DNA from: Halopiger djelfimassiliensis
Lineage (GTDB): Archaea; Halobacteriota; Halobacteria; Halobacteriales; Natrialbaceae
Direction: 5' to 3'
Assembly (NCBI RefSeq): GCF_000455365.1
Contig: NZ_HG315685.1
Location: 361,514-425,513 of the forward strand
DNA: 64,000 nucleotides
In this document: in pieces, positions 1,185-12,714 of the stretch
How the letters are laid out: each line of letters opens with the position of its first letter
How positions within the stretch are numbered: position 1 is the stretch's first letter
The notes under the pieces: model-generated
Seen by the model: the letters and a program-made list of their open reading frames with translations, nothing else
Told to the model about the DNA's origin: nothing
Database searches by the model: none
Translations under genes and position numbers: made by a program

Positions 1185-3137
1185 TCACAGTGTATCGACG
1201 TCGAGGATCATGACGACCTCCCCTTCGCCTAGCACCGAGGCACCGCTGATCCCGGGCGCACCGCTCAGGACGCCTTCGAAGGGTTTGATCACGACCTCTT
1301 CCTGACCGACGACGTCGGAACATCGGAGACAGACCTGTCTGACGCTGTCTTTGATCCGAACGACCATGTCGTCGGTGGTGTGCTCCGCGTCCGGTACGTC
1401 GAGCCGATCGCCAAGCGACAGAAGCGGATAGACGCGATTGTCGTGGGTGATCGTCGACTGTCCCTCGACCGATTCGACGGTGACATCTTCGAACTCGGAG
1501 ATTTCGTCGATGTTCTTGATCGGGACGCCGTAGGTCTCGTCCCCGACGGTGACAAACAGGACACGAACGATGGCGACGCTGACCGGCAGCATCAGCGTGA
1601 TGCTGGTCCCCTCGTCGGGTTCGCTCTCGACGTTGATCGAGCCGTCCACGCCGCGGACGACCTGATTGACGACGTCCATCCCGACGCCACGACCGCTTAC
1701 CTCGGTCACCTCGTCGGTGGTCGAAAAGCCGGGGTGGAAGATCAGGTCGTACACTTCCGAGTCGTCGAGGAGTTTGACCTCGTCCTCGCCCATGATCCCC
1801 TGTTCGACCGCTTTGTTCCGGATCTTTTCGACGTCGAGGCCGCCACCGTCGTCCTCGACGGTCACGGAGACGCGATCCCGGTCGCGTTCGCCGACGAGCC
1901 TGATCGTCCCTTCGCGGGGTTTGCCCTTCCGTTCGCGCTCCTCGGGCGATTCGATCCCGTGGTCGACGGCGTTGCGGATGAGATGCATCAGCGGATCGCT
2001 CAACTCGTTGAGGATCGACCGATCCATCTCGATGTCGACCCCCTCCATCTGGAAGTCGATCTCCTTGTCCTGCTCGCGGGCGAGGTCGCGGACGACCCGC
2101 GGGAAGTTGCCCACGATCTTCTTCAGCGGCACCAGCCGGATTTCGAGCACCGTATCCTGCAAGCTCGCGGTGATCTTGCCGTGTTCCTCGAGTTCGTCCT
2201 CCGCTTCGACCAGGCCGCTGCCCTCGATGATCTTGCGCAGCTTGATCCGGCTTGTCACCATCTCCTCGACCTGGTTGTACAGCTGATCGATCTGCTCGAC
2301 GTTGACGCGAATCGACTCGACTTCATTGCTGCTGTGGTTGAGACTCGAGTCGTCCCCGTCGTCCTCGTCGGCGGTCTCGCCCGTCTGCTCGGCGACGACG
2401 ACGTCGGTGATCCGCTCGACGGCGACCGCGTCGACGTATCGGTTCTCCTCGTAGAACGTCTCGATGTCGTCGCTGTCGACGTCGCCCGCCGTCGTCACGT
2501 AGGCGTCGAAACTCGCGTCGAACTCGCCGGACTCGATCGCCTCGCCTTCCGGAGCCGTCCGGACGAAGTCGTACTCGTCTTTCGTCGAATCGATGACGAA
2601 CATCGCGTCGACCTGCGGGGAACCGGTGTCCTCGAGCTCGAGGATAATGCGGTAGACGTCCTCCGCGTCCTCGAGTTCGATCGCGTCGGCCAGCGCTTCT
2701 GTCGGGACGTCACGGTTGTCGTCCGGCGTCTCCCCGTCGTCCGCCGAGTCGTCGGCCGCCGTTTCGTCGTCGATCGAGGCGCGGATCGCCGCGATCGTCG
2801 ACTCCGGATCCGTCTCGGTCTCGCCGGTCTCGGAGATCTCGTCGACCATCTGCTCGAGGAGGTCGACGCCGCTGAAGATGAGGTCCATCCGCTCGGGCGT
2901 GACCGCGAGTTCGCCGTCCCTGATACAGTCGAGGAGGTCCTCGATCGCGTGGGCCAGGTTGCTCGCGCTCGTATACCCCATCACGCCGAAGTTCCCCTTG
3001 AGGTTGTGTGCGACCCGGAAGACCGTCTCGATGGCGTCGGAGCTTTCCGGATCGTCCTCGAGGTCCAGCAAGGCGTTGTTGAGTTTCTGGATGTCCTCCT
3101 GACTCTCCTGTACGAACGTGCTCGTCGCGTCGCTCAT
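1185..3137 (-). CDS. cheA: Chemotaxis histidine kinase CheA
   Basis: CheA autophosphorylates on histidine under control of transducer-CheW arrays and passes phosphate to CheY and CheB. An N-terminal HPt domain contains VAHNLKGNFG, with the phospho-acceptor at His44. An acidic P2-like linker follows, then the P3 dimerisation helices, the HATPase domain (N box IRNAVDHGI near residue 387, DDGGGL near 427, GRGVGMDVV) and a C-terminal CheW-like P5 domain from about residue 515. I chose the ATG at 3137 because it overlaps the cheB stop as ATGA and has a GGGGGTGG stretch about 5-12 bases upstream. An ATG three codons further upstream (3146) is possible. The gene is translationally coupled to cheB. 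Confidence 0.97.
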   Translation of the reverse strand: MSDATSTFVQESQEDIQKLNNALLDLEDDPESSDAIETVFRVAHNLKGNFGVMGYTSASNLAHAIEDLLDCIRDGELAVTPERMDLIFSGVDLLEQMVDEISETGETETDPESTIAAIRASIDDETAADDSADDGETPDDNRDVPTEALADAIELEDAEDVYRIILELEDTGSPQVDAMFVIDSTKDEYDFVRTAPEGEAIESGEFDASFDAYVTTAGDVDSDDIETFYEENRYVDAVAVERITDVVVAEQTGETADEDDGDDSSLNHSSNEVESIRVNVEQIDQLYNQVEEMVTSRIKLRKIIEGSGLVEAEDELEEHGKITASLQDTVLEIRLVPLKKIVGNFPRVVRDLAREQDKEIDFQMEGVDIEMDRSILNELSDPLMHLIRNAVDHGIESPEERERKGKPREGTIRLVGERDRDRVSVTVEDDGGGLDVEKIRNKAVEQGIMGEDEVKLLDDSEVYDLIFHPGFSTTDEVTEVSGRGVGMDVVNQVVRGVDGSINVESEPDEGTSITLMLPVSVAIVRVLFVTVGDETYGVPIKNIDEISEFEDVTVESVEGQSTITHDNRVYPLLSLGDRLDVPDAEHTTDDMVVRIKDSVRQVCLRCSDVVGQEEVVIKPFEGVLSGAPGISGASVLGEGEVVMILDVDTL

Positions 3138-4183
3138 GACGACCACCCCCGGAAGGCGTTGGTGATTCCCTCGGCGATTCGGTCTTTCGGCAGGACCATG
3201 TCGACGTCGACCTGCTCGGCGGCCACCTTGGGCATGCCGTAGACGCGGGACGTCGCCTCGTCTTGAACGATCGCCTTGCCGCCGGCGGCCTTGATCGCCG
3301 CCAGCCCGTCAGCGCCGTCGGCACCCATCCCGGTCAGTACGACGCCGGCGAGGTTGCCGGTAACCGTCTCCGCCGCGGTCTCCATCGTCACGTCGATCGC
3401 CGGCCTGACGTTGTGTCGCTCGGGACCGTCGTCGTGGACGACGGTGAGTTGGCCCGTCGTGAAGTCGGTCACCTCGAGATGGTACCCGCCCTTCGCCAGG
3501 ACGCCCTCACCGGGGCCGACGGTATCGCCGTCGGCCGCTTCTCGAAAGTCGTACGCCGTTCGTTCGTCGAGACGTTTTGCGAAACGTTTCGTGTAATGAT
3601 CTGCCATGTGTTGAACCACCAGAATTCGCAACCCTGCTCGTTTGGGAAGTTCGGACAACACCCGCTCAACGACGCGCGGGCCGCCGGTCGATGCACCGAT
3701 AACGAGCGTGGGATCGCAGGGGAACTCCTCGCCGACGTCGATCGTCGACACCTGCTCGTGATCGGTCCGTTCCCGGTCCAGTCCGGTCACGTCCGCCGTC
3801 GCGACCGCACGGACCCGATCGACGATGGTATCCTTTTGCGTCCAGATGTCAACCGACTGGTCGCCGGACGGCTTCGCGATGAAGTCGACCGCGCCGGCCT
3901 CGAGCGCATCGAACGTCGCCTCCGCGTTTTTGGTCGTCTCCGAACTGATGACGAGCATCGGGATCGGATGCTCGTCCATGACCCGATCGATCACCTCGTG
4001 GCCGTTCAGACCCGGCATGTTGATGTCGATCGTCGCGACGTCGGGTTCACAGTCCTCGATGAGGCTGACGGCCTCGTAGCCGTTCTTCGCCCGTCCCACG
4101 ACGTCGATCCCACCGGCCTCGAGGATTTTCCCGAGCGTTTCTCGCATCACGGCGGAGTCGTCTGCGATGACTGCTCGGACCAT
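3134..4183 (-). CDS. cheB: Protein-glutamate methylesterase/deamidase CheB
   Basis: CheB removes methyl groups from (and deamidates) transducer glutamates for adaptation. Residues 1-120 are a receiver domain with acidic pocket DD at 8-9 and phospho-acceptor Asp53 in TIDINMPG. Residues of about 155-349 are the methylesterase domain, with GASTGGPR (Ser near 164), VVQHMADH (His near 191) and GMGADGADG (Asp near 286), a complete catalytic triad. The start is ATG 4183, which overlaps the cheY stop as TAATG; the open frame upstream of it is cheY read out of frame. The length of 349 residues is normal. It is the second gene of the cheYBAC operon. Confidence 0.97.
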   Translation of the reverse strand: MVRAVIADDSAVMRETLGKILEAGGIDVVGRAKNGYEAVSLIEDCEPDVATIDINMPGLNGHEVIDRVMDEHPIPMLVISSETTKNAEATFDALEAGAVDFIAKPSGDQSVDIWTQKDTIVDRVRAVATADVTGLDRERTDHEQVSTIDVGEEFPCDPTLVIGASTGGPRVVERVLSELPKRAGLRILVVQHMADHYTKRFAKRLDERTAYDFREAADGDTVGPGEGVLAKGGYHLEVTDFTTGQLTVVHDDGPERHNVRPAIDVTMETAAETVTGNLAGVVLTGMGADGADGLAAIKAAGGKAIVQDEATSRVYGMPKVAAEQVDVDMVLPKDRIAEGITNAFRGWSS

Positions 4184-4542
4184 TAGGGCACAACGTCGTT
4201 GATCGCTTGCTGGACCGTGCTGTTCTCGAACGGTTTCATAATGTAGCCGTCGGCACCGGCCTCGATAGCGGGCTTGATTCGGTCCTGTTGCGTGACGCTC
4301 GTACAGAAAATAATCTTGACGTCTGGATACATCTCTTTGATCGTGGCAGTTGCTTCGATCCCGTCGACCTCCGGCATGACGATATCCATCATGATTACGT
4401 CGACGTCGCGTTGTTCGGTTATCTCGATGGCTTCGCCGCCGTTTGCGGCCTCCGCGACGACGTGAAACTCGTCGGAGACCACCTCCCGAAGGACGTCGCG
4501 CATCACCTCGGAGTTGTCGACGATCAATACGTTCACTGCCAT
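4183..4542 (-). CDS. cheY: Response regulator CheY (operon copy)
   Basis: This is a 119-residue single-domain receiver that would carry the phosphoryl signal from CheA to the archaellum through CheF. The phospho-acceptor is Asp53 (MMDIVMP), the switch Thr lies in FCTS, and the conserved Lys is in IMKPF. The first acidic-pocket position reads VDN instead of VDD, so the second metal-binding Asp is Asn10. The other CheY in the window, at 10229, keeps both aspartates. The start at 4542 gives the standard N-terminus MAVNVLIVD and sits about 30 bases after a TATA-like TTTATG. It heads the cheY-cheB-cheA-cheC operon. Confidence 0.95.
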   Translation of the reverse strand: MAVNVLIVDNSEVMRDVLREVVSDEFHVVAEAANGGEAIEITEQRDVDVIMMDIVMPEVDGIEATATIKEMYPDVKIIFCTSVTQQDRIKPAIEAGADGYIMKPFENSTVQQAINDVVP

Positions 4543-4567
4543 GGGACTCGATTGTGAAGATCCCTGC

Positions 4568-4577
4568 ATAAAGAATT
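4568..4577 (-). promoter_or_regulatory. Probable TATA element of the cheYBAC operon
   Basis: On the minus strand a TTCTTTATGC stretch lies about 26-35 bases before the cheY ATG, which is the spacing expected for a haloarchaeal transcript with a short leader. The 143-base gap to parA is divergent. On the plus strand GAGTTATGTG near 4649-4658 could serve parA. Confidence 0.5.
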
Positions 4578-4685
4578 CGGCCAACCCCGTTTCTTGTTGT
4601 ACTGTTCGTTCCGCTTTCAAGGGTCTTGGGGCGGCCGATTTTGGCCGTGTGAGTTATGTGGGCAGAGTTGAAACGACCCAAGCGA

Positions 4686-5474
4686 ATGGCGGGATCCGCT
4701 CGGCTGTGTGTGACAAATCAGAAAGGGGGCGTCGGCAAGACGACCGTAGCGATCAACTTAGCCGGTGCGTTGAACGACCTCGGTCGAGACGTACTGTTCG
4801 TCGATCTCGATCCGCAGGGCAACGCGACCGAAGGGCTCGGCTTACTGGAAGCCTACGACGCCGAGCCGCCGGCGTTGCTCGATGCGCTCGTCGACCCGAC
4901 GGCCGTCCCACGTGATGAAATCATCTATTCCCACGCGGAGATGGACGTTATCACGAGCAACGTAGATATGAACGCGGCCGAGTCGGCGCTCATGCAGGAA
5001 TCGGACCCCGAAGCGCGCCTCGACGCGCTCCTCGAGCACGTCGAGACCGACTACGACGTCGTTGTGGTCGACTGTCCGCCCCACCTCGGTCTGCTTACGG
5101 ACAACGCGCTGTACGCGACCGAGAACCTCGTGATTCCGGCGCTTGCCGAACCGACCAGCAAACGCTCGCTCGAGTTGCTGTTCGATTACGTCGGCGCGCT
5201 CGAACTGGAACACGACGTCCAGATCGAACCGCGCGCGCTCGTCGCCAACCGCATCGAAAACACGCGGGCGGCGACCGACATGCTCGAGTGGTTCGAGGAC
5301 GCGTTGCCGGACGTACCGCTGTACCGGATCCGAAAGCGGGTGGCTCTCCAGCGTGCGTTCGCTGCGGGGACCTCGATCTTCGCCGCCGAGGAGGAGACCG
5401 ACATGCAGTCGGTCTTTACCTCGATGGCCGAAACGATCGACGAGCGACTCGATCCGACGGAGGTGCCGGCATGA
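4686..5474 (+). CDS. parA: ParA/MinD-family ATPase of the chemotaxis locus (ParC-like)
   Basis: This is a 262-residue ParA-type ATPase. The deviant Walker A KGGVGKTT with its signature lysine is at residues 13-20. The switch FVDLDPQGNAT lies near residue 38, and the Walker B-like VVVDCPPHLG near residue 124. Such ATPases position plasmids, septa or, as ParC and PpfA, bacterial chemosensory arrays. I used ATG 4686, which puts the Walker A at the usual distance from the N-terminus; an in-frame ATG at 4656 would add ten residues. The stop overlaps the next gene, a CheW-tailed protein, as ATGA. That coupling and the che context suggest array positioning rather than plasmid partition. No parB is adjacent. 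Confidence 0.9.
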   Translation: MAGSARLCVTNQKGGVGKTTVAINLAGALNDLGRDVLFVDLDPQGNATEGLGLLEAYDAEPPALLDALVDPTAVPRDEIIYSHAEMDVITSNVDMNAAESALMQESDPEARLDALLEHVETDYDVVVVDCPPHLGLLTDNALYATENLVIPALAEPTSKRSLELLFDYVGALELEHDVQIEPRALVANRIENTRAATDMLEWFEDALPDVPLYRIRKRVALQRAFAAGTSIFAAEEETDMQSVFTSMAETIDERLDPTEVPA

Positions 5475-6637
5475 CCGACGACAGAGCCCGCCGGATCAGA
5501 CGGATGCGAAACCGGGCTGCAAACGGGGGCGACGAGGACGGAGCGGAAGATGGGGCGGAATCGGGCGGCGACTCGACTGCGGACGACTCCGAACCCGAGG
5601 AGGGAACGCCGTCCGAGTCGACCGACGACCCCGACCACGACGAGCCGTCGACGGAGTCGGAAACAGCCCCCGACGAGGCGTCGGCCGACGAGACGGACGC
5701 GGACGGATCGGGGGATGGCGAGACGGTGTCGTACGACGAAGCCGAAACGGCCGCCGATGGATCGGCGGCCGAACAGCCGGATTCGGCGGCCGATCAGGAC
5801 GACGAAGCGCCCGAACCCTCGGCTGCTGATCCCGCTCCCCAACCCACTCGGTCGACCGAGCGTGGGTCTCAGGACGCCGACGCCACCGCGAGCGAGGCCG
5901 AACCGGACGCGAGCGTAGCCGCAAGCGGCGGTGCCGTTCCGGCAGCCGGGACCGACGAGGGACGGGTGACCCAGCAGGACATCGATCCGGCGCTCCGGGG
6001 CGCGATCGCCGATACGTCTGCGATGGCGGCCGCGATCGATGACGTCGGCGGGGAGCCGACGGTCGACACCACGGCCGTCATGCAGGATACGGACGGCTAC
6101 GGGAACGCGGCCGCGACGGTCGGCCGCGAGAACGCCGTGTTCGAACAGGGAGATACGCTGGTTCACTCGACTCACGACGGCGAAGATACCGTCCAGATGC
6201 TCGAGTTCTTCCTCAACGAGAACCGGTACGCCGTCGAGATCGATCGCATCAGTGCGATCGTCGAGATGAAAGACATCACGCGGTTCCCCCGCGGGCCGGA
6301 GGCCATCGACGGCGTCACCGACCTTCGCGGCGAGATTACCGGCATTCTCGATCCGACGATCATGCTCGACGTCGAGCGAAACGAGCTGTCGGACGATCAG
6401 TACATCGTCGTTCTCGAGCGGGACGACGACAAGCAGAAACTCGGGATTCGGGTGACGGACGTCTCGCAGGCGGTCACCTACCGCGAATCCCAGATCGACG
6501 AGACGGGGACCCTGATGGACGACGCGGGTGCCAGTCAGCACGAGTGTGTCAGGGGGATCATCAAAAAGACGACCGACGAGCAGACGACCCTCGTCGCCTG
6601 GCTGGACATCGACGAACTCATCGCGAACACGGAGTAG
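5471..6637 (+). CDS. cheW: CheW with arginine-rich N-terminus and long acidic linker (ParP-like architecture)
   Basis: The protein has 388 residues, over twice the length of a normal CheW. Residues 2-17 are arginine-rich ([11 protein letters not shown]). Residues of about 20-150 are low-complexity and dominated by Asp, Glu, Ser and Ala, so probably disordered. Residues of about 150-235 are a less biased segment, and 239-388 form a CheW domain ([33 protein letters not shown]). CheW couples transducers to CheA. The start overlaps parA as ATGA, implying coupled translation. ParA ATPases are commonly stimulated by short basic N-terminal peptides, so this N-terminus could be the ParA contact; that is inference. 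The CheW call is secure. Confidence 0.9.
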
Positions 6638-6717
6638 GTGAGGGGTCGGCCCCGCCTGCGGGTTTCAGCGACGGACCGTCAGCGCCGGGTCCGTCCCCGG
6701 CAGCTAACGGATCTGCA

Positions 6718-6731
6718 AAAACACTTATTGG
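6718..6731 (+). promoter_or_regulatory. Probable promoter of the transducer gene
   Basis: AAAAACACTTATTGG, with a TATA-like CTTATT, lies about 24-30 bases before the transducer ATG at 6754. The same ACTTATTG string occurs before cheR near 9087, which suggests a shared promoter type for the Che genes. Confidence 0.5.
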
Positions 6732-6753: not shown

Positions 6754-8373
6754 ATGTCTAGAACCGACGGTGGAGGGTTCACTATCGACACTGATTACCT
6801 CAGCGCTCTCGCAACGGCCGACGTCGATCGGGCCGACGTAAGCCGGGCGAAAGAACGCGTGTCGTTGCGCTCCGAGGACGAATCGCGTCTCGAATCCATG
6901 GCTGACGTGTTCGATTCCGTCAGCGGCGACCTCTCCGAGGCGTACGTCGACGACGTCCAGTCCCAGTCCGGCGTCGCGAACGCACTCGATCGAGCGGGCA
7001 CCGACGGCTCGCGCCTCGAGCAGGAACAACGGGAGTACCTGGAGACGATCGCCGGCGGTCGTTACGACGCCGGGTTCTTCGAGCAGCGCGTGACCGGCGA
7101 CGGCGTCGGGGCGTTGCTCGCGGCCGGCCCGGACGTGTATCTCGGTTCGTTCGGCGTCTACTACGAGGGCGTCCTGCGGGAGATCGCCGAAAACGTCAAG
7201 GCCGAGTACGGAGCCGACGAGGCCGATACCGACGCACAATCGGCGACCGACGACCGCACTGACGGCGGCGTGACCCTCTCGCCCTCCGCGGACGGGGCCG
7301 ATCCCACGGCGGCCGCCGTCGACGCCGTCGTCGACCGGACGCTTTCGTTCCTGCGGATGACGATGGTCGACCAGCAACTCGCTCTGGGGGCGTACGCGAA
7401 CGCCCAGCAGTCCCGACTCGAGGAGTGCGAAGCGCGGATCGAAGAACAGGACGCCCGGATCGAGGAGTACGAACGGAAACTCGACGAGCAACGGCGCGCC
7501 CGGACCGACATCGAGGACGCTCGACGGAACATCCGGAACACGCTCGAGCGGATCTCGACGTCGACCGACGAGGTCACCGAGAGCACGACGACGATCGACG
7601 AACTCGCGACCGAGCAGTCGGAGTCGATGGGCGAGATCGCAAGCGAAGTGTCGGGGCTGTCGGCGACCGTCGAGGAGATCGCGTCCAACGCGGAGGAGGT
7701 CAGCGCGACGAGCGAACGGGCCGAGGAGATCGCCTCGGAGACGACCGAGACCGCCGAGGAGGCCATCGACAAGATGGAACGCGTCGAGACGGCAGCGACC
7801 ACGGTCACCGAAGACGTCGCGGAGCTTCGACAGGGCGTCCAGCGCATCGACGAGATCGTCGAGGTGATCAACAACATCGCCGATCAGACGAACCTGCTTG
7901 CGCTGAACGCGTCGATCGAGGCAGCGACGGCCGGCGAGGCCGGCGACGGGTTCGCCGTCGTCGCCAACGAGGTCAAATCCCTCGCCGAGGAGTCCCAGGA
8001 GGAGGCGGCCAACATCGAACAACTGGTCGACCAGATCCAGGACGACACCCAAGAAACCGTCGAGAGCCTCGAGGAGGCAAACGAGGAGATCGCCGACGGC
8101 GTCGACCTCGTCGAAGAGACCGTCGAGAACCTGACCCAGATCACGGAGTCGGTCACGGAGGCCAGTACCGGGATTCAGGAGGTCGCAACGGCGACCGACG
8201 ATCAGGCCGCAAGCACCGAGGAGGTCGCCAGTATGACCGATACGGCGATGGAGAAATCACAGGCGGTCGCCGAGGAGATCGACACGATCGCCGGCGTGAC
8301 CGACCGGTTGAACGAACTGGTCGAGGAGATCGACACCGAAGTCCGCCGTCTCGAGACCGACGGCACCAACTGA
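6754..8373 (+). CDS. Cytoplasmic globin-coupled-type methyl-accepting transducer (HemAT-like, no proximal His)
   Basis: This 539-residue transducer has no transmembrane segment. Residues of about 1-215 resemble the protoglobin sensor of Hem[30 protein letters not shown] and [11 protein letters not shown] match the family layout. The heme-ligating histidine expected about ten residues before YLGS is glycine ([15 protein letters not shown]). A coiled coil starts near residue 225, and the signalling hairpin tip ([19 protein letters not shown], then [16 protein letters not shown]) lies near residues 370-415. The ligand is unknown if heme is absent. It lies between two cheW genes, so it probably signals to the local CheA. 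ATG 6754 follows a TATA-like element; the longer upstream frame is cheW read out of frame. Confidence 0.88.
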
Positions 8374-8387
8374 GACACTGAGAACCC

Positions 8388-8834
8388 ATGGCAACGACAG
8401 AACACACTATCGACGCGGACGCAGCCGAAACCACCACGCACGTACTCGAGTTCGATCTCGGCGAGAACAGGTACTGCATCGACATCGGCTACGTCGCGGA
8501 GATCGTCAACACCGACGAACTGACCGCGATTCCGAACACGCCCCCTCACGTCGAGGGGGTCATGGATCTCCGGGGCGAAACGACGAAGATCGTCAACCTC
8601 CGGACGATCTTCGACGACGCCGCCGACGCCGAACTCGGCAGCCGGATCATCGTCTTCAAACGCAAACGTGGCTCCGACGAACGGATCGGCTGGCTCGCCG
8701 ACGAGGTCCGACAGGTCCGGCAACTCAACGTCGAAACCGTCGACACCTCGGTCGAAGGGAAAGGCATCGCCGGCGTCGTTCGACAGGAAGACGAGTTCGT
8801 CCTCTGGATCGATCCGACCGACGTTCGCGTCTGA
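8388..8834 (+). CDS. cheW: Chemotaxis adaptor CheW (short copy)
   Basis: This 148-residue single-domain CheW links transducers to CheA. The domain spans residues of about 18-145 (HVLEFDLGENRYCIDI, GVMDLRGETTKIVNLR, GVVRQEDEFVLWID). It starts 14 bases after the transducer stop, so it is probably cotranscribed with it. Unlike the CheW at 5471 it has no N-terminal extension, so it can serve as the plain coupling protein while the long one has a second job. Confidence 0.95.
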   Translation: MATTEHTIDADAAETTTHVLEFDLGENRYCIDIGYVAEIVNTDELTAIPNTPPHVEGVMDLRGETTKIVNLRTIFDDAADAELGSRIIVFKRKRGSDERIGWLADEVRQVRQLNVETVDTSVEGKGIAGVVRQEDEFVLWIDPTDVRV

Positions 8835-9128: not shown

Positions 9129-9938
9129 GTGACCACGGACGATTCATTTACCGCCCTCCTCGAGTATATGGAAACCGACCTGTCGTTCGCGACGAGTCAC
9201 TACAACGATAGTTACCTCGATCGCCGCATCACGGCACGGATACGGCGAACGAGGTGTGACGACTACGACGAGTATTTCGATCTCCTGCAGTCCGACCCGG
9301 ACGAACAGGCCGCGTTGCTCGATTCGATGAGTATCAACGTCACGGGCTTCTTTCGAAACCCCGGGGTCTGGGACGGCATTCGGGACGTTCTCCGGACGCT
9401 GTCGTCGACCACGGATCGCCTCGAGATATGGAGTGCCGCCTGTGCCGACGGCCGGGAACCGTACTCGCTGTCGATGCTGGCCCACGACGACCCGCGGATC
9501 GACGAATCCGCGGTTCGCATTCTGGCGACCGATATCAGCGAGGACGCGCTCGAGGTCGCCCGGAACGGCGTCTATGAGGAATCGCGGACGACCGACATCG
9601 AAGGCGAACTCGACTACCTCTCCAATCCAGACCGGTACGTCGAGTACGACTCGACCGCGGAAACCTATCGCGTTCGGGACTCGGTCAAGGAACGCGTCAC
9701 GTTCGAGCGACACGACCTCATCAACGGCGGCCCGAAGTCCGGGTTCAACCTCGTCACCTGTCGGAACCTCTTTATCTACATCGACACCGAGTACAAACGA
9801 ACCATGCTCGAGACGATCGCACGGTCGCTTCGGCCCGATGGGTACCTCGTCATCGGGAAAAGCGAGACGATCCCGCCGGCGCTCAAATCCGAGTTCAGCG
9901 CGACGGATAACCGCCACCGCATCTACGAGCGGACGTAA
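9129..9938 (+). CDS. cheR: Chemotaxis protein methyltransferase CheR
   Basis: CheR methylates transducer glutamates using S-adenosylmethionine, opposing CheB. The protein has 269 residues. An N-terminal helical domain (LLEYMETDLSFATSHYN) is followed by NVTGFFRNPGVWD, the SAM-binding loop SAACADGREPYSL near residue 103, ATDISEDALEVAR, and LVTCRNLFIYID near residue 213. The start codon is GTG. A TATA-like AAACTTATTG lies about 37-46 bases upstream. The 294-base gap after cheW (8835-9128) shows no other gene. Confidence 0.96.
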   Translation: MTTDDSFTALLEYMETDLSFATSHYNDSYLDRRITARIRRTRCDDYDEYFDLLQSDPDEQAALLDSMSINVTGFFRNPGVWDGIRDVLRTLSSTTDRLEIWSAACADGREPYSLSMLAHDDPRIDESAVRILATDISEDALEVARNGVYEESRTTDIEGELDYLSNPDRYVEYDSTAETYRVRDSVKERVTFERHDLINGGPKSGFNLVTCRNLFIYIDTEYKRTMLETIARSLRPDGYLVIGKSETIPPALKSEFSATDNRHRIYERT

Positions 9939-10228: not shown

Positions 10229-10585
10229 ATGGACGTACTGATTACGGACGATTCCGGGTTTATGCGGGACCTCCTCCGGGAAATCCTCGAAGAGGACCAC
10301 AACATCGTGGGGGAAGCCGAAAACGGCGTCGAGGCCGTCGAACTCTACCGAGAAGAGGAACCAGATATCGTGTTCATGGACATCGTGATGCCGATCAAAG
10401 ACGGCGTCGAAGCGACCGACGAGATCACGGATATGGATCCGGACGCGAAGATCGTCATGTGTACGAGCGTCGAGCAGGCCGAGCAGATGAAAGACTCGAT
10501 CAAGGCGGGCGCGGAAGGGTACATCACGAAGCCGTTCCAGAAGGAGAGCGTGCTCGAGGAACTGAACAGTATCGCTGCCGGGTAA
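10229..10585 (+). CDS. cheY: Response regulator CheY (second, canonical copy)
   Basis: This 118-residue receiver domain has all the canonical residues: acidic pocket DD at 7-8 (LITDDSGFMRD), phospho-acceptor Asp51 (FMDIVMP), Thr in MCTS and Lys in YITKPF. It lies 6 bases before a two-domain CheC, the enzyme class that dephosphorylates CheY-P, so the two are probably one transcript. The N-terminus follows a TATA-like CATTAAGTAATC at 10198-10209, which gives a short leader. It may be the main archaellum-directed CheY because the operon copy at 4183 has an altered metal site. Confidence 0.95.
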   Translation: MDVLITDDSGFMRDLLREILEEDHNIVGEAENGVEAVELYREEEPDIVFMDIVMPIKDGVEATDEITDMDPDAKIVMCTSVEQAEQMKDSIKAGAEGYITKPFQKESVLEELNSIAAG

Positions 10586-10591
10586 GCTGCC

Positions 10592-11806
10592 ATGGAAATA
10601 GATATCCGCGAGCTCGAAACGTATCAGGAGCTCGCTCACGACGGCGCAGAGTCCGCCGCCCAGTCCCTCTCGCAACTCACGGGGATCAGTACGACCGTGC
10701 AGGTCACGAACGTCTCGCTGATGTCCTCGTCGGACCTCGAGTACGAGTTTATCGGCAACGAGTTCGCCGGCGTCAACATCGATCTCCGGGGCGAAATCTC
10801 GGGCGAAGTCGTCCTCGCGTTCGACGAACAGGGACGGACGGCGATCACCGACGAACTCGTCCCGGCCGACGATCCCGAGAAGAAAAAAAGCAGCATCAAA
10901 GAGGTCGGGAACATCATGTCCAGCGGGTTCGTCGACGGCTGGGCGAACTACCTGAACGCGAAGATCAAGAGTTCGCCGCCGACCTACATCGAGGGGACCG
11001 GAACCGATGTCCTCCCGAAATCGGCAACTCAGGACGATAACTACCTGTTCGTCTTCCGCAGCCGCGTCGAAGCCTCACAGGACGGCGTCAACGAACCGGT
11101 CGATTTCCGCATCCTGCTGGTTCCCGACTCGACCTCGCTCGAGCGTGCGTTCAAGCCCCAGACCGACAAGATCGTCTCCGTCGAGAAGCTGAAGGTCTTC
11201 AACGACATGACCAAAGAGGGGGCCGAGAAGGCGGCGACGAACATCACGTCGATGACCGGCATCGACACGACCGTCGAAATCAGCCGGCTGACGCTCGTTC
11301 CGATCGAGGACATCCCGATGGAGGTCGGGAACAAACGCTACGTCGGGACCGTCATGGAGTTCAACGGGAAGTTCAGCGGCCACCTCGTGATCCTGTTCGA
11401 TCAACCTTCCGGACGCGCCGTCGTCGATTCGCTCGTCCCGATGGAAACCGACGAGCAGTGGGGCGACGTCGAACAGGGCGCGCTGAAGGAGCTGGGCAAC
11501 ATCATGACAAGCGGGTTCATCGACGGCTGGGCGAACGTGTTGAACGCGGAAATCAAACACTCGCCGCCGGAGTTCGTCGCCGACACCGGCTCCTCGATCA
11601 TGAACCCGATCACCACACAGATCGCGGAAACCGACGATCACGCGTTCATGCTCGATTCGAACATTCAGACCAACAGCGATCAGGTGTTTACCTGCCAGAT
11701 GCTCGCCCTGCCACGCCGTGACGAACTCGAGCAGGCGCTCGACGATCTCCTCATCGAGAACTCGGACAATACGCGGATCGATCCGGACGAACTGTTCGAT
11801 CGCTGA
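10592..11806 (+). CDS. cheC: CheY-P phosphatase CheC, two-domain, intact active sites
   Basis: This protein has 404 residues and two CheC repeats. Repeat 1 has SSIKEVGNIMSSGF and repeat 2 has GALKELGNIMTSGF, so both keep the catalytic Glu and Asn, each followed 22 residues later by the conserved proline. Each repeat also contains DGWAN-LNA-IK-SPP. The family removes phosphate from CheY-P and can bind CheD. The gene directly follows the canonical cheY, suggesting a matched pair. It contrasts with the CheC at the left window edge, where both asparagines are replaced. Confidence 0.95.
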   Translation: MEIDIRELETYQELAHDGAESAAQSLSQLTGISTTVQVTNVSLMSSSDLEYEFIGNEFAGVNIDLRGEISGEVVLAFDEQGRTAITDELVPADDPEKKKSSIKEVGNIMSSGFVDGWANYLNAKIKSSPPTYIEGTGTDVLPKSATQDDNYLFVFRSRVEASQDGVNEPVDFRILLVPDSTSLERAFKPQTDKIVSVEKLKVFNDMTKEGAEKAATNITSMTGIDTTVEISRLTLVPIEDIPMEVGNKRYVGTVMEFNGKFSGHLVILFDQPSGRAVVDSLVPMETDEQWGDVEQGALKELGNIMTSGFIDGWANVLNAEIKHSPPEFVADTGSSIMNPITTQIAETDDHAFMLDSNIQTNSDQVFTCQMLALPRRDELEQALDDLLIENSDNTRIDPDELFDR

Positions 11807-11832: not shown

Positions 11833-12714
11833 CTACGCGTTTACGTCTTCGATCCGCTGGCTCACGACGATCCGTCCTTTCGGCGTCAGCGAGATGCCGT
11901 TGCCGTTCTCGACGACCAGCTCCTTGTTCTGGACCGAGTTCAACACGTTTGTCACGTACGCCGGGTCCCCGTCGAGCATGTTCGTGAAATCGATGTCGCC
12001 GCCCGTCGCGTGCACGCTGACCAGCACCCGCTTTTCGGGGTTGGTCAGTTCGATGTCCTCGATCTCCTCGCGCAACTCGTCGAACTCGAGGCGGAGATAC
12101 CGCGCGAGCAAGTTCACGTACTGGCCTTTCGTCGGCGAGAGCAACGACGTCTTCGAGCGCCCGGAGTCGGGGTCGATGTACTTGACGACCAGCGTGATGC
12201 GGTCGTCGCGATCCCCGAGCGTGTTCGAGCGCGTGATCCCCATGATCGTCTCGATGTCGAACGCGACCGTTCCGGAGTCGGTACTGATCTCGATCCGTCG
12301 GTCCTTGATTCGGAGCGTTCCCGTCCTGACGGCCGTGTCCGTCACCCGCCCGCCGACCTTCCCCGGGTGTTTCACCGCAACGGATCGGCCGTTCAGTAGA
12401 CAGCGAAACAGGATCGCGACGAACGTCTCGACCGTCTCGCCGTTGCTCTCGATGACGGCACTCCGTGTCCCCTCGTCGGTGTCGTAGCCGATCGTCACCG
12501 TATCGTCGAAGAACTGCTTGACGTGATTGGGGACCGTGCCGACGTTGATGTCGATGACGCTCGAGAGCGGAATCGTCGTTTTCCCGTCGTTCGTGGCGAG
12601 TACGAGGCGCTGTTTCGTCATGATGATTCGACCCTTGGTCGGCGTCCCGCTTTGCCCACCACGTTGATTGAGAAAGAACCGCCCAGTGAAATCAGCGACG
12701 ACGTCTTCGGTCAT
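11833..12714 (-). CDS. cheF1: CheF, archaeal chemotaxis adaptor to the archaellum (CheF1)
   Basis: This is a 293-residue member of the CheF family (DUF439), which in Halobacterium salinarum connects CheY and other Che proteins to the archaellum. The N-terminal half carries two PH-like blocks (GRIIMTKQRLVLATNDGKTTIPLSSV and VTDTAVRTGTLRIKDRRIEI). The C-terminal 60 residues form a winged-helix-like segment (PAYVTNVLNSVQNKELV) ending TPKGRIVVSQR. It lies downstream of arlI on the same strand with an 88-base gap. A second CheF is at 25303. Confidence 0.92.
   Translation of the reverse strand: MTEDVVADFTGRFFLNQRGGQSGTPTKGRIIMTKQRLVLATNDGKTTIPLSSVIDINVGTVPNHVKQFFDDTVTIGYDTDEGTRSAVIESNGETVETFVAILFRCLLNGRSVAVKHPGKVGGRVTDTAVRTGTLRIKDRRIEISTDSGTVAFDIETIMGITRSNTLGDRDDRITLVVKYIDPDSGRSKTSLLSPTKGQYVNLLARYLRLEFDELREEIEDIELTNPEKRVLVSVHATGGDIDFTNMLDGDPAYVTNVLNSVQNKELVVENGNGISLTPKGRIVVSQRIEDVNA

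Follow-up and report, generated by a model that had tools for sequence, protein, structure and literature searches.

The closest described systems to the receptor analysed here are the HemAT transducers (HemAT-Bs and HemAT-Hs), soluble proteins that join an N-terminal Protoglobin-type globin-coupled sensor (GCS) domain to a C-terminal MCP part. The HemAT-Bs dimer is formed by helices G and H of the globin. Its distal heme pocket includes the B10 tyrosine, Tyr70 (PMC13401364), and a four-helix bundle core has been described for it, as has the binding of ethanol by the globin helices without use of the heme (PMC7542364). Non-haem sensor globins are also known: the RsbR proteins of Bacillus stressosomes have neither the proximal His nor the distal Tyr, and a fatty acid is present in the crystals of one of them (PMC4976288). 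A comparable loss has been described in the haloarchaeal opsin-related proteins (ORPs), which lack the Lys for retinal yet retain signalling residues of opsins, and many of which have MCP or che genes as neighbours (PMC4915679). Halobacterium salinarum has several soluble transducers, most of them with a signal that is not known, which prefer CheW2 (PMC3579733). Because a sensor globin is normally taken to detect gas, a gene that joins Protoglobin and MCP easily receives the annotation of an aerotaxis receptor; in an early survey of globins in genomes, archaeal candidates were discarded when they were small or had no suitable F8 His (PMC1457004). In the open-access literature, we found no report of a GCS chemoreceptor without heme.

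Our study of a 64,000-nucleotide stretch of the Halopiger djelfimassiliensis genome (the window) points to such a receptor. Its gene lies in the main che cluster of the organism (Table 1) and probably encodes a functional cytosolic chemoreceptor whose globin is heme-free and whose input is not O2. The order of its domains is that of HemAT: the sensor matches the Pfam Protoglobin family PF11563 with 35.2 bits (E 1.5e-8; cut-off 25 bits), as do all 13 alignment rows of the window protein and its relatives at E up to 1, and the C-terminus is an MCPsignal domain (PF00015, 157 bits). The 25 best Pfam matches listed for the protein include no STAS domain, and an NCBIfam search returned no family for the sensor. 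The protein has no strongly hydrophobic stretch (the highest 19-residue Kyte-Doolittle mean is 1.21) and holds 131 acidic against 39 basic residues, which together indicate a soluble receptor of haloarchaeal type.

Table 1. Features of the receptor gene and its che cluster (window coordinates), with ORP loci on other stretches in the last row.
Feature	Position	Strand	Basis or remark
CheA	1185..3146	-	
CheB (start codon not settled)	3134..4177	-	
CheY	4183..4620	-	
ParA-like ATPase of che cluster	4656..5474	+	
CheW, long N-terminal extension (start codon not settled)	5483..6637	+	PF01584, 76.5 bits
Conserved promoter-like element TGCAAAAACACTTATT, 40 to 25 bases before ATG	6714..6729	+	15 clade A genes compared
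Globin-coupled chemoreceptor, putatively heme-less, 539 aa, soluble MCP	6754..8373	+	Frame translation, Pfam, hydropathy
Protoglobin/GCS sensor domain, residues 28-219	6835..7410	+	PF11563, AlphaFold2 model, match to 1or4
Val65 codon, place of distal Tyr B10 (HemAT-Bs Tyr70)	6946..6948	+	Alignment
Glu91 codon, place of HemAT-Bs Thr95	7024..7026	+	Weak; column varies among His-bearing rows too
Gly119 codon GGG, place of proximal His F8 (HemAT-Bs His123)	7108..7110	+	Profile and row alignment
Retained motif before and in helix G, residues 129-139	7138..7170	+	Alignment, model
Low-confidence linker, helices G to H	7216..7302	+	pLDDT <50 at residues 160-179
VDQQ, residues 205-208, retained in helix H	7366..7377	+	Alignment
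MCP signalling domain, residues 332-494	7747..8235	+	PF00015, 157 bits
MCP hairpin tip	7864..7995	+	Near-identical in His-bearing paralogues
CheW directly downstream of receptor	8388..8834	+	PF01584, 91.2 bits
CheR	9129..9938	+	Pfam
CheY-like receiver	10229..10585	+	Pfam
CheC/CheX-like phosphatase	10592..11806	+	Pfam
CheF-arch, then archaellum genes	11833..12714	-	PF04283, 232.7 bits
ORP loci in che clusters	L083:4988-5734 and 2334-3077; L074-L076, L081, L082, L085, L176		

The predicted structure of the sensor is that of a GCS globin. The AlphaFold2 model, built with 13 sequences (the window protein and relatives), has a mean pLDDT of 82.8 and a pTM of 0.76, and its best matches in VIA-align are AfGcHK (5ohf, Z 17.3) and HemAT-Bs (1or4, Z 17.2, rmsd 2.0 over 147 residues). 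A control model of a His-bearing sensor from Haloferax elongans matches 1or4 equally well (Z 17.1), and RsbR (2bnl, Z 8.8) is among the matches listed for this control but absent from the list for the window model, a difference that speaks neither way. Foldseek ranked the same entries first for the window model in a clear order, with all E values above 0.001 (best 0.014). The model thus predicts that the window sensor retains the GCS-type fold, and the comparison with HemAT envisaged in a first-pass annotation of this DNA comes out as globin-like. At the sequence level, a PDB search with a profile of 12 clade members gave HemAT-Bs 1or4 as its top match (E 0.0039), and phmmer against the PDB with the single window sensor sequence gave no match.

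The first-pass annotation had proposed a GCS without its heme-ligand histidine, recognisable by conserved features around it. Both features, the motif at residues 129-139 and VDQQ at residues 205-208, are present, and HemAT-Bs His123 is aligned to Gly119 of the window protein in the profile and in the row alignment; the spacing from Arg112 to Tyr129, 17 residues, is the same in the two proteins. Across the 78 rows of the alignment, the proximal column holds His in 54, including the distant free-standing protoglobin L009, and Gly, Ala, Glu, Pro or Asp in 24. All 53 His-bearing haloarchaeal rows have the F8 His together with the B10 Tyr, and 52 of them have the Lys two positions before F8 (K117). 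The F8 His and this Lys are absent from all His-less rows, which divide into clade A (15 rows, the window protein included) and clade D (9 rows); the B10 Tyr is found in none of the former and in five of the latter. The basic motif of helix F, RIGKIH, is gone from the window protein as well. D42, L46, R112, Y137, V189 and D206 are kept in all 24 His-less rows and Q208 in 21, from which it appears that the heme pocket went and parts of helices G and H stayed. We also considered the loss of the HemAT-Bs Thr95 equivalent as added evidence and do not rely on it, since the His-bearing rows are variable at this position as well.

With no histidine among its 539 residues, the window protein does not bind heme through another histidine, the way out that the first-pass annotation had left. 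Loss of heme itself, which it had put forward as a possibility, is well supported by the sequence, other axial ligands being possible: there is no His, the distal Tyr and RIGKIH are gone, and the proximal His is lost throughout a clade in which the globin fold appears to be kept. A heme held by Tyr, Met, Lys, Asp or Cys, leaving the receptor a gas or redox sensor, seems very improbable to us; in its favour, 22 of the 24 His-less rows retain Tyr129 (HemAT-Bs Tyr133) and five of the nine in clade D have the B10 Tyr, but the window protein has neither the F8 His nor the B10 Tyr, nor RIGKIH, nor a His at any other position.

The loss of the histidine characterises a clade. Searches covered 293 genomes of the order, 125 of the family and 392 of the phylum; 82 domain rows were collected from the order and the family, five fragments were dropped and L009 was added to give the 78 rows. 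A scan of genome contigs with the single sensor sequence found no relative, and profiles were used instead. The resulting sample of 77 haloarchaeal GCS domains (24 without the His, 53 with it) consists of best matches, and F8 His losses elsewhere are possible. In the tree of all 78 rows, the 24 His-less rows form one group with a support of 100/100, which is unchanged in a reduced tree of 77 rows and 143 columns that left out L009 and the pocket, linker and coiled-coil columns; the two parts of the group are supported there by 97/94 and 98/90. The family search gave 24 matches of at least 186 bits, in 20 of the 125 genomes, and these are exactly the 24 His-less rows; the next match in the family (144 bits) has the His, as does the best match outside it in the search of the order (109.8 bits), and there is no match above 145 bits outside the family among the 392 genomes of the phylum. 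The clade is thus limited, in this sample, to the window's own family, which holds Natrialba, Natrarchaeobius and Haloterrigena and is apparently Natrialbaceae. At the proximal site, clade A has Gly in six rows, Ala in five, Glu in two and Pro in two, and clade D (loci L086-L094) has Asp in all nine. With 16 window queries, no che gene was found within the stretches of about 20 kb around the clade D genes. In three genomes (G246, G305 and G306), the Asp-type receptor of clade D is the sole GCS match (E up to 1e-5). The best tree places the His-less clade on a long branch, away from the His-bearing GCS of the che clusters; AU tests reject neither a tandem-duplication origin from the latter (p 0.37) nor a sister relationship to the L006 group (p 0.42).

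All 15 clade A genes (14 on the stretches of relatives and that of the window) lie in the che cluster, in the order parA - cheW - GCS - cheW or a rearrangement of it. Three genomes without a clade A gene (G229, G128 and G140) have the order parA - cheW - cheW - GCS(His). A His-bearing GCS lies just across cheW in nine of the 15 clade A genomes (G220 among them), five including the window's have no such tandem and one more ends at a contig edge. The proximity of these paralogues raises the possibility that the His-less protein is a partner subunit, entering mixed dimers or arrays with a His-bearing receptor and tuning its O2 response. All 15 clade A genomes do have at least one further GCS match (the state of the His was read for part of them), but we give this reading little weight, given the five genomes without a tandem copy and the fact that the only other GCS receptor in the genome of the window, L006, belongs to another subfamily and another locus. 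The presence of His-bearing L006 and of the free-standing protoglobin L009 elsewhere in this genome means that aerotaxis need not depend on the heme-less receptor. Upstream of the receptor, window positions 4656-6637 encode a ParA-like ATPase and then a CheW whose long N-terminal extension is acidic and of low complexity. The pair is conserved whether or not a che cluster holds the heme-less receptor, and may have a role in array placement.

The sensor is under purifying selection. Among seven Natrialba genomes, dN/dS of the His-less sensor ranges from 0.24 to 0.43 with a median of 0.32 (21 pairs), and the median for the signalling part is 0.16 (10 pairs, G243 and G314 being left out for their interrupted frames). 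The tandem His-bearing sensors give 0.18 to 0.37, mostly near 0.25 (21 pairs, with slightly different borders), and constraint on the His-less sensor is thus somewhat weaker. The element TGCAAAAACACTTATT, which we take to be the BRE/TATA of a nearly leaderless transcript, is identical in 11 of the 15 clade A genes and present as a variant at the same spacing in the other four, and the MCP tip is near-identical between the His-less receptor and its His-bearing paralogues. It is extremely improbable that the gene is decaying and without function: two of the seven Natrialba copies (G243 and G314) have a frame that is interrupted within the MCP part, but the clade is old and spans several genera, dN/dS is well under 1, and promoter and MCP tip are conserved. 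These two interrupted frames, at loci L074 and L082, have 429 and 471 codons; L074 (G243) contains N's, and an assembly error is therefore possible there. The further suggestion of the first-pass annotation, that the domain had gained another role, finds support only in so far as selection, synteny, the promoter and the intact MCP tip speak for a role as such; no particular one (ligand, partner or scaffold) follows from them.

Free variation between Gly, Ala, Glu and Pro at the clade A site fits a plain loss of function there better than one precise new ligand, and it makes a scaffold that is blind to signals a rival to be taken seriously. The globin would then serve as a cap for dimerisation, holding the MCP rod in a single state and seeding or balancing the cytosolic array, perhaps with its ParA and CheW neighbours, adaptation being the sole input. 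The fixed place of the gene beside parA and two cheW genes and the conserved residues of helices G and H fit this reading too. A plain cap, however, needs no whole globin under purifying selection (dN/dS 0.32), and the site is invariably Asp in clade D, whose genes are not near che genes; we consider the scaffold unlikely on balance, though less so than the other alternatives discussed above.

We therefore favour a receptor with a functional, heme-free input domain. Since the residues for heme are lost and a whole branch keeps the heme-less form, the receptor probably senses something other than oxygen. From the predicted fold and profile match, the loss of both pocket residues, the clade, the synteny and the selection, we infer a protein without heme that would dimerise, couple to CheA and respond to a different kind of signal. 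By analogy with HemAT-Bs, the globin would still form its dimer by way of helices G and H, and globin and contact together would drive the intact MCP rod, which would couple to CheA via the CheW encoded next door. The input would no longer be heme and, with it, O2. It would most likely be either a cytosolic partner or an apolar or small organic ligand lying in the cavity that the heme has left among the helices; the non-heme globins of RsbR and ethanol sensing by HemAT-Bs are the precedents.

Each of these precedents differs from the window receptor in some respect. HemAT shares its layout and predicted fold (Z 17.2), but in the window receptor the proximal His, the distal Tyr and indeed any His are lacking, making heme and an O2 response unlikely. 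Ethanol sensing by HemAT-Bs, like the sensing proposed here, would be a matter of globin helices without heme; HemAT-Bs, unlike the window receptor as we read it, still holds heme and senses O2. RsbR and the window sensor are both sensor globins without proximal His and distal Tyr that are kept as an input, with no close sequence relation seen between the two, but the output of RsbR is a STAS domain in the stressosome and that of the window receptor an MCP in an archaeal che cluster. The window receptor has the layout of HemAT with an input like that of RsbR, and falls outside HemAT by its pocket and outside RsbR by its output. Non-heme sensor globins and heme-independent sensing by HemAT-Bs were known already; a clade of heme-less globin chemoreceptors is a new variant.

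The ORPs are alike in that a sensory fold for a cofactor, encoded near MCP or che genes, has lost the cofactor residue and kept its signalling residues; they differ in having an opsin fold, in being membrane proteins and in acting with a separate transducer. Leu stands at the place of the retinal Lys in all 12 ORP copies that we found, on eight of the 37 stretches fetched, and seven of these eight also carry a His-less GCS; such ORPs thus share che clusters of Natrialba genomes with the heme-less receptor. We saw no mention in the ORP report (PMC4915679) of a neighbourhood with a heme-less globin receptor. The genome of the window has an ORP of its own at G000:C1:917710-918324 (minus strand, locus L188). 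It matches Bac_rhodopsin with 28.2 bits, has Leu in place of Lys in EVILLVGFG, and is encoded some 100 bases away from an MCP gene.

A stable heme-less branch in an archaeal che cluster is a natural experiment on heme-independent sensing by globins, for which the close His-bearing paralogues next door serve as controls. It is also a second case, beside the haloarchaeal ORPs, of a cofactor sensor keeping its output and dropping its cofactor. It is conceivable, and we propose it only tentatively, that the Natrialbaceae have turned a gas-sensing globin into a receptor for a non-gas signal bound in the empty heme cavity, and that their che clusters, in which opsins too have lost the retinal lysine, have repeatedly recruited, as receptors for other signals, O2 and light sensors that lost their cofactors.
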